This document shows positions 31,486-34,759 of a DNA stretch of 46,354 bases, piece after piece (the stretch's first letter is position 1; each line of letters begins with the position of its first letter). The DNA comes from Proteocatella sphenisci DSM 23131 (GTDB lineage Bacteria; Bacillota; Clostridia; Peptostreptococcales; Filifactoraceae): NCBI RefSeq assembly GCF_000423525.1, contig NZ_AUID01000022.1, positions 1-46,354 of the forward strand. The letters run 5' to 3'. A model generated the notes under the pieces. The model worked only from the letters and a program-made list of their open reading frames with translations, was not told the origin of the DNA and did no database searches. The position numbers and the translations under genes were made by a program.

Positions 31486-32248
31486 AATAATTGCAGCAGA
31501 GTATCTTGCAGCATTAATACGTGAAGTTGATGAAAAAGCAGAAGTTGTAACAGAAATTAATCCTGTTAAGTCACTGGAACTTGCCAAACAACAGTTTCAT
31601 GTTTGCTTTGTTGATATACAAATGCCAGGGTTAAATGGAATAGAGTTTGCAAATAAGATTAAGCAATTGTACCCGAAGACTAATTTTATATTTGTGACTG
31701 GTTATTCGGACCATATGGGAGAGGCCTTTAGACTCGATGCAAGTGATTATATAATGAAGCCAGCGAACGTAGAGCAGATACGTCACGCACTTGAAAATCT
31801 AAGGTATTCATCTCAAGAAAGTCCAGTGGGGGAAGAAAAGCAGAGGATACAGATAAGCTGTTTTGGAAATTTTGATATACTTATAGATGAAAAACCTGTA
31901 AAATTTAAATTTGACAAGACAAAAGAACTTTTAGCATATCTTGTTCATCGAAAGGGCACAAGATGTACTTCAAAGGAAGTAATTGCAAATCTATGGGAAG
32001 AAGAAGGGCATGATTCTTACTATAGGATGCTGAAAAAAGATTTGCAGGATGTGCTTAACGAACTTGGATGTGGAAAAATAATATATAGTGAAAGAGGGCA
32101 GGTTGGATTGGCAAACTTAGAATGTATAGAGTGTGACTACTTTAAGTGGATAGAAAATATGGTGGAGGGAAGAAAATTCTATCATGGAGAATACATGGCT
32201 CAATATTCTTGGGCGGAAGAAGTTAATGCTTTTATTAATATGCATTGA
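31448..32248 (+). CDS. Response regulator with SARP-like DNA-binding output
   Basis: 266 residues from GTG 31448 (GTG 31460 is an alternative; GGAGAG at 31443-31448 fits the latter better). The receiver (1-115) has VLDDE (9-13), the phospho-acceptor in CFVDIQMPGLNG (Asp 56) and the lysine in YIMKPANVEQI. After a linker, residues 134-260 read ISCFGNFDILID, FDKTKELLAYLVHRKGTRCT and SKEVIANLWEEEG, the OmpR-like winged helix of SARP/BTAD regulators. It is cotranscribed with the kinase. Its likely target, four TTGAC boxes, starts within its own last codons and precedes the antiporter gene. Confidence 0.88.
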   Translation: MVKDVKYLVLDDEIIAAEYLAALIREVDEKAEVVTEINPVKSLELAKQQFHVCFVDIQMPGLNGIEFANKIKQLYPKTNFIFVTGYSDHMGEAFRLDASDYIMKPANVEQIRHALENLRYSSQESPVGEEKQRIQISCFGNFDILIDEKPVKFKFDKTKELLAYLVHRKGTRCTSKEVIANLWEEEGHDSYYRMLKKDLQDVLNELGCGKIIYSERGQVGLANLECIECDYFKWIENMVEGRKFYHGEYMAQYSWAEEVNAFINMH

Positions 32249-32299
32249 CACTTCCTTGACATTTTATTGACACTTCCTTGACGGAGAGAATGTTATACT
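32245..32299 (+). promoter_or_regulatory. Four-box 11-bp-periodic operator and antiporter promoter
   Basis: TTGAC starts at 32245, 32256, 32267 and 32278, an exact 11-bp period. Boxes 1-2 and 3-4 sit in two identical 17-bp copies (32244-32260, 32266-32282), 22 bp apart. TATACT at 32294-32299 is the likely -10, with 11 bp after the last TTGAC. No normally spaced -35 exists, so the boxes probably replace it. Confidence 0.75.
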
Positions 32300-32343
32300 G
32301 AAATTGTAATTTTGTACATTATAATATTTTTGGAGGTGTTTTT

Positions 32344-33879
32344 ATGAACGAAAAGAACAAAGTGATCAGATTACCCAACAAAGTAGAAGCCATTATTCCA
32401 ATTGTTTTTCTTTTGACAATAATGATTACAAACTATGCACTTGGGTGGGGACTCGATCCTCATATTCCTGTAACTCTTTCATGTGGAGTTGCTATGCTTA
32501 TTGGAAAACTGTGTGGCTATAACTATAAGGAAATGCTTGCGGCAGGACTTGAAGCGGTTAATCAGTCCCTTGAAGCAATAATTATAATTCTTCTTGTAGG
32601 ATGCCTGATTGGTTCATTTACTGCATCTGGAACTATCCCAGCAGTAGTATATTATGGACTAAAGCTACTTACACCAGCTATATTCCTTCCATTTGTGACA
32701 ATTCTTTGTGCAGTTGTAGGGATTGCACTGGGTTCGGCATGGACAGTATCAGCAACGCTTGGTATTGCATTTATGGCTATAGGGACAACAATGGGGTTAA
32801 ACCCGGCACTTATTGCAGGAGCTGTTCTTTCGGGAGCGTGTTGTGGAGACAAGTTCTCACCACTTTCAGATTCAACAAATCTGGCTGCAGGTTCTGCACA
32901 GACTGGACTTTTTGATCATGTGGGAGCAATGGTAACTACAACTTTACCAAGTTTAATTATGGCAACATGCATATTTGCATTTTTCTCACTTTCAAACGTT
33001 GGAAGTTATGACCCTACGCTTGCAAATGAGCTGTCAGCGGCAATCGTTGAACACTATACATATATGAGCCCAATTCTTCTTATTCCTATTTTACTGATTA
33101 TAGTAGTAGCGGTAATAAAGATGCCAGCTATTCCTTCGGTAGTACTTCTTTCTTTGATTGGATGTGCATTTGCCTTAATATTCCAAGGGGCTGGAATCGC
33201 TGACTGCATCCAAATGCTCCACTATGGATATGAGGCTGAATCAGGAAACGCATTGTTTACAAAACTTGTAAACAGAGGTGGTATGGATAGTATGCTTTGG
33301 ACTAACAACCTTGTAATAGTTGCGGTTGCTTTTGGTGGTGTACTTCAAAAAATTGGTTCAGTAGAATCACTTCTTGGTGGACTTATCAAGAAAGTTAAAA
33401 CTCCATTCCAGTTAATTCTAGTTACCATTACAACTTCAATGTTCTGTATTACAACTATGTGTGACCAGTATTTAGGATTAATAATTCCTGCATCAATGTA
33501 TAAGGATAACTTTGACGAAATGGGTCTTGGAAGAAATATGCTTTCAAGAACACTTGAAGATGGTGGTACTTTATGGTCACCACTTATTCCTTGGTCATCT
33601 TGCGGTGCATATCATGCAGCAGTACTGGGTGTTCCAACACTTTCATACTTGCCATATTGCTTCATGAATATAATAAACCCTATTTATGCTATTGTTACTG
33701 CAAGCTGGGGTGGAAATATTTTATATGCTGATGGATCAAGAACCAATGCGTTTGGTAAACTAATAAAAGGTCGCGGACCAGCTGCTGCACCAGAAGAAGC
33801 ATATGAAAAGGCTATGAAAGCTCTTGCAGAAATAAGAAATGCGGAGAATCTTAGTGGCCTGCAGAAAAAAATCAGCTAA
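32344..33879 (+). CDS. nhaC: Na+/H+ antiporter, NhaC family
   Basis: 511 residues, GGAGGTG before ATG 32344. About 11-12 membrane helices. Diagnostic segments are VGCLIGSFTASGTIPAVVYY, GIALGSAWTVSATLGIAFMA, LSGACCGDKFSPLSDSTNLA (the family's GDxxSPLSDTT signature) and RTLEDGGTLWSPLIPWSSCG. NhaC-type proteins exchange Na+ for H+, and close relatives swap malate/lactate or amino compounds. The specificity cannot be fixed here. It follows the kinase/response-regulator pair by 95 bp that hold the four-box operator, so it is likely their target. Confidence 0.92.
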   Translation: MNEKNKVIRLPNKVEAIIPIVFLLTIMITNYALGWGLDPHIPVTLSCGVAMLIGKLCGYNYKEMLAAGLEAVNQSLEAIIIILLVGCLIGSFTASGTIPAVVYYGLKLLTPAIFLPFVTILCAVVGIALGSAWTVSATLGIAFMAIGTTMGLNPALIAGAVLSGACCGDKFSPLSDSTNLAAGSAQTGLFDHVGAMVTTTLPSLIMATCIFAFFSLSNVGSYDPTLANELSAAIVEHYTYMSPILLIPILLIIVVAVIKMPAIPSVVLLSLIGCAFALIFQGAGIADCIQMLHYGYEAESGNALFTKLVNRGGMDSMLWTNNLVIVAVAFGGVLQKIGSVESLLGGLIKKVKTPFQLILVTITTSMFCITTMCDQYLGLIIPASMYKDNFDEMGLGRNMLSRTLEDGGTLWSPLIPWSSCGAYHAAVLGVPTLSYLPYCFMNIINPIYAIVTASWGGNILYADGSRTNAFGKLIKGRGPAAAPEEAYEKAMKALAEIRNAENLSGLQKKIS

Positions 33880-33906: not shown

Positions 33907-34320
33907 ATGGAATATTACGGAATCATGCCAGAACGAAAAACGTGGGTAAAAGTTGCAGTTATAATATTGGGAGTTTACACTTTCTATAACTCAGTTGTAA
34001 ATCGTAACTTGCTTTACCTGCCATTTGGAATTATCATGATTCTTGCAACTTTTTCTGACAGAAAACATGTAATTTCACAAGAAGGTGTGGATATTCTTTA
34101 TACTGTCTGTGGAACGAAGTTTCATAATATGTGGGACTGGAATGCAATAAATACAATTCATACAGATTCAATCAAATCCAGACCCAATGTAGAAATGCAT
34201 ATTGGTAAAGATGTGATATCTAGAAGGTTTATTTTATCAAAAGATGATGCTAAAAAAGCAGTAGCTATTGCAAGGAAAATGAATTCAAAGATTTATATAG
34301 CAGAAATGAATAAAGCTTAA
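33907..34320 (+). CDS. Small membrane-associated protein
   Basis: 137 residues with GAAAGGA before ATG 33907. Two short hydrophobic segments lie at about 12-27 and 32-47, followed by a beta-rich part with VISQEGVDILYTVCGTKFHN, MWDWNAINTIHTDSI and FILSKDDAKKAVAIARKMN. The two helices plus a beta domain recall PH-like membrane proteins such as PF06713 or YcxB types. It is 27 bp after nhaC and ends at a clear terminator, so it belongs to the antiporter operon. Confidence 0.6.
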   Translation: MEYYGIMPERKTWVKVAVIILGVYTFYNSVVNRNLLYLPFGIIMILATFSDRKHVISQEGVDILYTVCGTKFHNMWDWNAINTIHTDSIKSRPNVEMHIGKDVISRRFILSKDDAKKAVAIARKMNSKIYIAEMNKA

Positions 34321-34331
34321 TAATTTTGAAG

Positions 34332-34361
34332 GTGCCTGATGGTTTGAATCAGGCACTTTTT
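34332..34361 (+). terminator. Rho-independent terminator of the nhaC operon
   Basis: GTGCCTGA (34332-34339) pairs perfectly with TCAGGCAC (34349-34356), with a 9-base loop and five T residues. Confidence 0.9.
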
Positions 34362-34371
34362 GCTTTCAATT

Positions 34372-34567
34372 GCAATTATAAGGTTAATATGTTTTCAGGT
34401 GGAGAGTTAAAGCGATTGGAGATTGCAAGTGTACTCGCTAGAAAATTAAAGGTTGTGCTATTTGAAGAGCCTAAGGCAGGTATTGATGTTTTAATCGTAG
34501 CCGGCTGTGGTATTCATAATTCGGGATGCAATACTGCTCAAAATGATGATTTCTGGAGGATTGTAAA
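34372..34567 (+). pseudogene. SufC-like ABC ATPase remnant
   Basis: The frame has KVNMFSGGELKRLEIASVLA and RKLKVVLFEEPKAGIDV: the ABC signature (SGGE.KR.EI..VLAR) and Walker B/D-loop (LFDEPEAGID) of a SufC-like ATPase, with the usual Asp of Walker B changed to Glu (FEEP). Walker A and everything before are missing, and what follows is a short unrelated stretch. A deleted relic. Confidence 0.65.
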
Positions 34568-34759
34568 ATGGATGGAACAAAGAGAATAAATATCAAGATC
34601 GGGTTGACTGTGATGGTTGTACAAAAGCAGGATCAGCGAAGTGGAAAACTTACAGAGGGTACGGTAAGAAGGATCCTCACGAATTCACCTGACCATCACC
34701 ACGGCATAAAGGGAATGCTTGAGAGCGGAATTGTGGGCAGTGTGAAAGAGATAAAGTAA
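34568..34759 (+). CDS. ywbE: YwbE family protein (DUF2196)
   Basis: 63 residues, GGAGG 8 bases before ATG 34568. The sequence MDGTKRINIKIGLTVMVVQK, then QDQRSGKLTEGTVRRILTNS, PDHHHGIKGMLESG and VGSVKEI matches the whole of the YwbE family (KQDQRTGKLTxGxVxxILTxSPxHPHGIKVxLExGxVGRVxEI). Two usually conserved positions differ (HHHG for HPHG, GSV for GRV). Function unknown; small beta-barrel-like, cytosolic. Complete. Confidence 0.85.
   Translation: MDGTKRINIKIGLTVMVVQKQDQRSGKLTEGTVRRILTNSPDHHHGIKGMLESGIVGSVKEIK

Follow-up and report, generated by a model that had tools for sequence, protein, structure and literature searches.

A predicted operator of paired 11-bp repeats between a receiver-SARP-like response regulator and nhaC in Proteocatella sphenisci

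In Proteocatella sphenisci DSM 23131, a member of the Clostridia, the gene for a predicted Na+/H+ antiporter is preceded by a run of TTGAC boxes that begins at the very end of a response regulator gene. The question raised by this locus is which protein reads the boxes, and what effect it has on the promoter that they abut. The first-pass annotation had linked a LytS-type kinase, a SARP-type regulator and the antiporter in a single signalling circuit, within a window that we define as the whole stretch of DNA analysed (46,354 nucleotides of contig NZ_AUID01000022.1). Our reading of the sequence, to which we assign a probability of about 0.8, is that the response regulator encoded beside the boxes uses them as its operator: when phosphorylated it would bind them side by side, replace the -35 contact and activate nhaC.

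The cassette and its promoter

The cassette encompasses four genes (Table 1). The assignment of the kinase to the LytS type is borne out by its His_kinase and HATPase domains; its N-terminal half is hydrophobic by hydropathy, and the H-box QPHFLYN can be read from residue 238. The regulator is present as a single copy in the genome, the next matches having E values of 3.1e-11 or weaker and at most 33% identity among the matches listed. The assignment of nhaC follows from the NhaC model TIGR00931, which scores 390 bits against a cut-off of 370; the ArcD model reaches 325.7 bits on the same protein, under its own cut-off of 650. The fourth gene encodes a bPH_7 protein. The order's 30 best-matching nhaC loci include 11 with the regulator, and in all 11 a bPH_7 homologue stands beside nhaC; one is also present in the flanking sequence fetched for 14 of the 19 nhaC loci that have no regulator. 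These gene neighbourhoods suggest that bPH_7 and nhaC are a functional pair. Beyond the cassette, a short frame at 34326-34589 carries, by eye, an ABC-ATPase signature stretch, SGGELKRLEIASVLARKL, and resembles the remnant of an ABC/SufC-like ATPase gene.

Table 1. Features of the cassette and its promoter in the window.
Feature	Position	Strand	Evidence and remarks
Sensor histidine kinase, LytS-type, 437 aa	30172..31485	+	His_kinase PF06580 1.2e-21; HATPase_c (PF02518) 4.1e-8
Response regulator, 266 aa	31448..32248	+	Response_reg PF00072 7.4e-19; predicted fold matches AfsR/EmbR
Upstream TTGAC pair (32245, 32256)	32245..32266	+	Duplicate 22-bp unit, in the window only; missing in 14 other orthologous promoters
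Conserved operator (predicted), TTGACACTTCCTTGAC, two boxes, 11-bp period	32267..32282	+	TTGACACTTNNTTGAC between regulator and nhaC in 15/15 loci
-10 hexamer TATACT	32294..32299	+	TG at 32291-32292 (extended -10); TANNNT at the exact distance in 15/15 loci
GGAGG ribosome-binding site of nhaC	32332..32336	+	Read from sequence
nhaC, Na+/H+ antiporter family protein, 511 aa, predicted target	32344..33879	+	TIGR00931 390 bits; PF03553 1.2e-54
bPH_7 protein, 137 aa, fourth cassette gene	33907..34320	+	PF20794 1.5e-47

Direct reading of the window confirms four TTGAC boxes before nhaC, starting at 32245, 32256, 32267 and 32278 and thus at an exact 11-bp period, in an array (32245-32282) that is followed by TATACT at 32294. 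The pentamer occurs 49 times on the forward and 25 times on the reverse strand of the window, and the chance expectation for a chain of four at this period is approximately 6e-8, assuming independent sites. The array consists of a 22-bp unit present twice, with 16 of the 22 positions identical between the copies, and its first box overlaps the stop codon of the regulator (32246-32248). Exact matches to the three-box pattern are found at this promoter only in the 2.41-Mb assembly. With up to three mismatches there are 38 matches versus 81 for a reversed control, and these weaker matches are therefore noise.

The promoter had also been described as having no normally placed -35. This holds for TATACT, for which the best match to TTGACA at 16-18 bp is one position in six, but not for every possible -10, as the TTGACA of the third box (32267) lies 18 bp from TGTTAT, a four-in-six match to a -10 hexamer.

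Conservation and spread of the paired boxes

Searching 393 genomes from the order turned up 11 further regulators, of 60-88% identity, in two other families. A scan of named genomes gave 16 regulator loci, with hosts that include Marinisporobacter, Anaerovorax, a Tissierellales bacterium, Urinicoccus massiliensis and Peptostreptococcaceae pGA-8; 10 of these loci have nhaC directly downstream, of which seven overlap with the order search and three (L097, L098 and L102) are new. Together with the window this makes 15 distinct loci. The order kinase, regulator, nhaC is kept in all 15, and a kinase homologue stands immediately upstream of the regulator in each, as its putative cognate kinase. One nhaC, that of Anaerovorax sp. 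IOR16 (genome G336, L096 6933-7921), is internally deleted and lacks about residues 136-313, with its promoter boxes intact; on account of this deletion the genome falls outside the 30 best nhaC loci.

In all 15 loci the pattern TTGACACTTNNTTGAC-N11-TANNNT precedes nhaC, and the remainder of the spacer varies. The alignment was anchored on the box pattern, so the box letters themselves are selected, while the presence of a match in every spacer and the TANNNT are not. The other 14 promoters have two boxes in register, and in some a third TTGAC lies 20 bp upstream, out of phase. Four boxes as the functional unit are consequently rejected, because conservation covers the proximal pair only and the upstream pair is absent from the 14 other promoters. 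Of the four boxes first noted, the proximal pair stands as the conserved operator, and the upstream pair is a duplication confined to the window.

Of the 30 best-matching nhaC loci, the 11 with an adjoining regulator all show two TTGAC boxes at 11-bp spacing. The pair is found before none of the 19 nhaC homologues (65-76% identity) that have no regulator in the fetched flank, in up to 200 nt of upstream sequence and with some flanks ending at contig ends (for example L151). The first-pass annotation had suggested scanning related genomes for the boxes, and this check favours its proposal on both counts, with conservation ahead of 15/15 orthologous nhaC genes and absence from 19/19 homologues that have no regulator. 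The geometry of the boxes, their conservation, their association with the regulator and the lack of a -35 for the conserved -10 are seen directly.

The sequence of the third box has to be weighed here, as TTGACA is a perfect -35 hexamer and the locus might be read as an ordinary sigma-A promoter, in which this box serves a -10 located 18 bp downstream (TGTTAT in the window) and the repeats are incidental. At that distance seven of the 15 loci have TATTAT (5/6), and two, the window among them, have TGTTAT (4/6), yet in the remaining six the hexamer is TATTAC, TGTTAG, TGCTAG or TGTTAA, which lack the final T and agree at two to four of six positions, whereas TANNNT at 21 bp is kept in all 15. 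The second TTGAC, which would be without a role in such a promoter, is also kept in every locus, the pair is absent from the 19 homologues that have no regulator, and the distant relatives discussed below share the geometry with boxes that are unlike a -35. An ordinary sigma-A promoter is, on this evidence, decidedly unlikely.

The conserved pair appears to be specific to this promoter. In 12 genomes the TTGACACTTNNTTGAC pattern has 13 exact matches (two of them in the window), all located at this promoter and together accounting for 12/12 genomes. Allowing one mismatch adds 13 matches, one of which lies inside the array of the window, versus 18 for the reversed control, and none of the 12 that lie elsewhere has TANNNT in register. 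A wider regulon of TTGACACTTNNTTGAC sites was therefore rejected, with one-mismatch matches below the reversed control and no -10 in register. At least one such match (L124) looks by eye like an ordinary TTGACA-N17-TATAAT promoter. L135 and L136, in the related genomes G203 and G336, share TTGACATTTTCTTGAC, in which the second TTGACA is by eye 16 bp from TATAAT; an ordinary promoter is possible at this site as well.

Across families, proteins of the cassette show higher identity than an RpoB fragment does. To genomes G057, G042 and G203 the regulator is 88, 87 and 85% identical and NhaC 90, 88 and 90% identical, and the RpoB fragment, at 76, 76 and 68%, lies below the cassette proteins. Gene layouts on both sides of the cassette differ between loci, and at E 1e-30 the regulator is absent from all 10 other genomes of the window's family, one of the same genus and several incomplete. 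The simplest reading of these comparisons would be horizontal transfer of the four-gene unit together with its operator. A scan of viral contigs found no relative. The L098 cassette comes from a contig of 4.2 kb that had been binned into a Fusobacterium MAG, for which transfer or mis-binning is possible.

The regulator and its distant relatives

The regulator was said to be a receiver fused to a SARP-like winged helix. The receiver is found, with residues D11, D12, D56, T84 and K104 invariant in 17 sequences, matching the acidic pocket, phospho-Asp, Thr/Ser and Lys of response regulators. A predicted model of the full protein (pLDDT 85.6) matched other folds mostly through its receiver, and since the receiver dominated the search the output domain was folded alone, giving a model of pLDDT 90.8. 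The first six Foldseek ranks for this domain are all AfsR or EmbR (E 4.5e-6 to 1.2e-3), and VIA-align gives Z scores of 14.8, 14.5, 14.3 and 13.5 over 131-135 residues for AfsR/EmbR, versus at most 10.2 over about 92 residues for PhoB-type domains. The output domain thus matches the SARPs best and has, in its predicted model, the OmpR-like winged helix of the SARP type.

The description of the protein as a SARP-type regulator stands only in part. The alignment to AfsR stops near AfsR residue 180, and after the winged helix only helices at 230-236, 238-244 and 254-265 follow before the reading frame ends, so that a complete BTAD is lacking; the window protein ends about four residues before its closest orthologues. 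Pfam BTAD has no match in the regulator even at E values up to 10. Trans_reg_C (PF00486) scores 13.5 bits on the window protein against a gathering threshold of 26.2, which does not place it in the OmpR/PhoB family, although at E up to 10 this profile matches 15 of 17 family members, with a best value of 1.4e-4. Against solved structures, phmmer with the output domain returned nothing at E up to 1, and a profile search gave weak matches only, the best at E 0.45 and EmbR at E 0.88. Given the missing Pfam BTAD match and the E value for EmbR, the link to SARPs rests on the predicted fold. We file the regulator as a receiver-SARP hybrid, SARP-like in its presumed working and not a canonical SARP, as a complete BTAD was looked for and is not there.

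Relatives of this regulator with less than 50% identity were collected at 132 loci, none of which has an nhaC homologue. The samples were chosen by similarity to the window regulator, not by SARP fold, and include related genomes and paralogues; the hold-out sample holds 60 of 62 remaining matches (two were left out), and L234-L236 were dropped from the phylum sample as they were already in others. The scan recorded exact 6-mer direct repeats at lags of 6-20, outside the bodies of reading frames, that are followed by TA...T 14-18 nt after the start of the second copy. This offset range was set from the window and then left unchanged, and it partly forces the alignment of sites on a -10. Flanks are mostly 1.5 kb, and repeats other than exact 6-mers escape the scan.

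A lag of 11 bp stands out in all three samples. The discovery sample has 24 such sites in 18 of 51 loci (0-6 for each of the other 14 lags), the hold-out sample 25 in 21 of 60 (0-6 for other lags) and the phylum sample 15 in 12 of 21 (0-3). A site of lag 11 is detectable in 51 of the 132 distant loci, and 81 have none under the exact 6-mer rule. These merged non-coding counts supersede a version that included coding sequence, with 38 lag-11 sites in 23/51 loci and 36 in 28/60, other lags of up to 22 and 26 sites, and one site at seven loci of other regulators from the window's own genome; they also supersede a count of overlapping matches that gave 97 at lag 11. Without any -10 requirement, the 111 loci of the discovery and hold-out samples have 120 lag-11 sites versus 18-60 for each other lag from 7 to 18. 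TATAAT-like hexamers then peak 16 and 17 nt after the start of the second copy (11 and 10 of the 120 sites) versus 5 and 2 at the same offsets for 411 sites of other lags; the offset in the window is 16.

The control loci bear on whether a different DNA-binding protein, such as another OmpR/PhoB-type regulator, uses the boxes. PhoB-type winged helices bind 11-bp direct repeats near the -35, and OmpR-type loci do give a weak signal at lag 11 (5 sites in 3/30 loci, with other lags up to 4), against 1 site in 1/30 for LytTR-type loci and 1 in 1/19 for nhaC loci that have no regulator. However, the boxes and this regulator occur together, and many of its distant relatives have private boxes adjoining the gene that encodes them. 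That some other protein is the reader is very improbable indeed.

The 49 sites of the first two samples point in 35 cases into a gene other than the kinase or regulator, in three into the kinase and in three into the regulator; 29 of the 35 lie 7-147 nt past the regulator stop on the same strand. The remaining eight, several of them another site read on the opposite strand, have no downstream gene and were excluded, leaving 41. Aligned on the -10, these have fewer TTGACA-like hexamers at 16-18 bp than shuffled sequence does, 34 of 41 scoring at most two of six where about 21 are expected, and a shortage of this kind is expected for activator-dependent promoters. It also bears on whether the regulator might bind the boxes and repress nhaC, blocking the polymerase in one phosphorylation state. 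The boxes do lie inside the promoter, and the reading with an 18-bp spacer would put a working promoter under the regulator, but the conserved -10 is without a placed -35 and -35 matches fall under the shuffled expectation in the 41 family sites. We regard repression as unlikely.

The box sequence varies by locus, with GTTGTCC, GATGTGC, TTGTTAC and TGGGAGA as examples. Pfam was run on 10 of the 29 longer target frames and identified Ig-like, ABC ATPase, Cache, glycoside hydrolase family 2, clostripain, ricin-type lectin, DUF6273 and S-layer matches, two of the 10 having no match. L074, L174, L175 and L176, which hold same-genus regulators, share GATGTGC boxes before a gene with a dCache domain in its product, as shown for L074; the target is possibly a sensory or chemoreceptor gene.

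The regulator had been portrayed as a SARP-like case far from the actinomycete setting. The Clostridium-like host agrees with this, but the case is not isolated, as private 11-bp repeats are found beside many of its relatives in Bacillota. We think it probable that the receiver-SARP regulators of Bacillota are a large class, many or all of them with a private 11-bp repeat pair that abuts a -10, has no -35 and usually precedes the adjoining gene. If so, SARP-type activation, possibly including sigma adaptation, would be a general, phosphorylation-controlled promoter mechanism outside the actinomycetes. For many orphan two-component systems, the target could then be predicted by the operator rule with nothing more than the sequence. 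The rule in question, two copies at 11 bp with a -10 that starts 16-17 nt after the start of the second copy, would serve to predict the targets of this regulator class.

Proposed mechanism and comparison with known systems

In the mechanism that we propose, the LytS-type membrane kinase would phosphorylate Asp56 of the receiver-SARP regulator. Two regulator molecules would then bind side by side to the TTGAC boxes at 32267 and 32278, one helix turn apart, and the pair would take the place of the usual -35 contact of sigma. RNA polymerase would thereby be recruited to TATACT, and nhaC would be switched on together with the bPH_7 gene that follows it. In the window, the duplicated 22-bp operator could offer up to four sites in phase. 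We infer binding, phosphorylation, activation rather than repression and the contact with sigma, which in SARPs involves region 4 of sigma; Na+ or pH as the signal is guesswork prompted by the target gene. The single circuit of kinase, SARP-type regulator and antiporter proposed at first pass holds in so far as boxes, regulator and nhaC occur together in 15/15 loci, and is amended to two boxes and a hybrid regulator. The analysis supplies a predicted operator for a two-component system whose probable target is an antiporter gene. It would also extend the promoter geometry of SARPs to Clostridia, with a phosphorelay in control.

The regulator resembles the PhoB/OmpR response regulators in joining a receiver to a winged helix, and PhoB boxes are themselves 11-bp direct repeats in the place of the -35. 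In contrast, the structural match to this family is lower and shorter than that to the SARPs, and Trans_reg_C stays below the Pfam cut-off. The SAPR-type response regulators (COG3947) are composed of a receiver, a wHTH and a BTAD. The window regulator has the same domain order but stops after the first BTAD helices; the open frames of several homologues, at 360-414 aa, are long enough for a fuller BTAD. In the titles and abstract openings that our searches of open-access literature returned, no operator is described for the SAPR class or for receiver-SARP regulators of Bacillota, and no two-component system dedicated to nhaC. The CarSR system of Fusobacterium has an NhaC gene among its direct targets, with a 17-bp AT-rich sequence as its motif (PMC12186487, in part).

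Among the SARPs, EmbR of Mycobacterium tuberculosis (PDB 2fez, 2ff4) shares the fold of the predicted model with Z scores of 13.5-14.5. Unlike the window regulator, it has a BTAD and an FHA domain and no receiver (for FHA, PMC10936776, in part). AfsR of Streptomyces coelicolor (PDB 8hvr, 8k60) matches the predicted model through its winged helix and the start of its BTAD, at Z scores of 14.3-14.8, and likewise uses 11-bp direct repeats that overlap the -35 zone (PMC10936776, in part). It differs in that the window regulator has an N-terminal receiver and lacks NOD and TPR domains as well as the greater part of the BTAD, and in that the target here is an antiporter and not an antibiotic pathway, in a host that is not an actinomycete. 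SARP repeats are spaced 11 or 22 bp apart, a distance of 8 bp separates the 3' repeat from the -10, and the afs box, 22 bp in length, has its centre at -29.5 (PMC10936776, in part); for PimR, a pair of heptamers with 4-bp spacers is required (PMC5930380, in part). In the window, the heptamer TTGACGG is 9 bp from TATACT, with its core TTGAC at -16 to -12 relative to the -10 start, and the box pair has its midpoint 16.5 bp before the -10, versus about 17.5 in AfsR if the AfsR -10 begins at -12. By sequence, the conserved pair before nhaC therefore agrees with the SARP operator, in its period of 11 or 22 bp and in the distance of about 8 bp from 3' repeat to -10, to within 1 bp.
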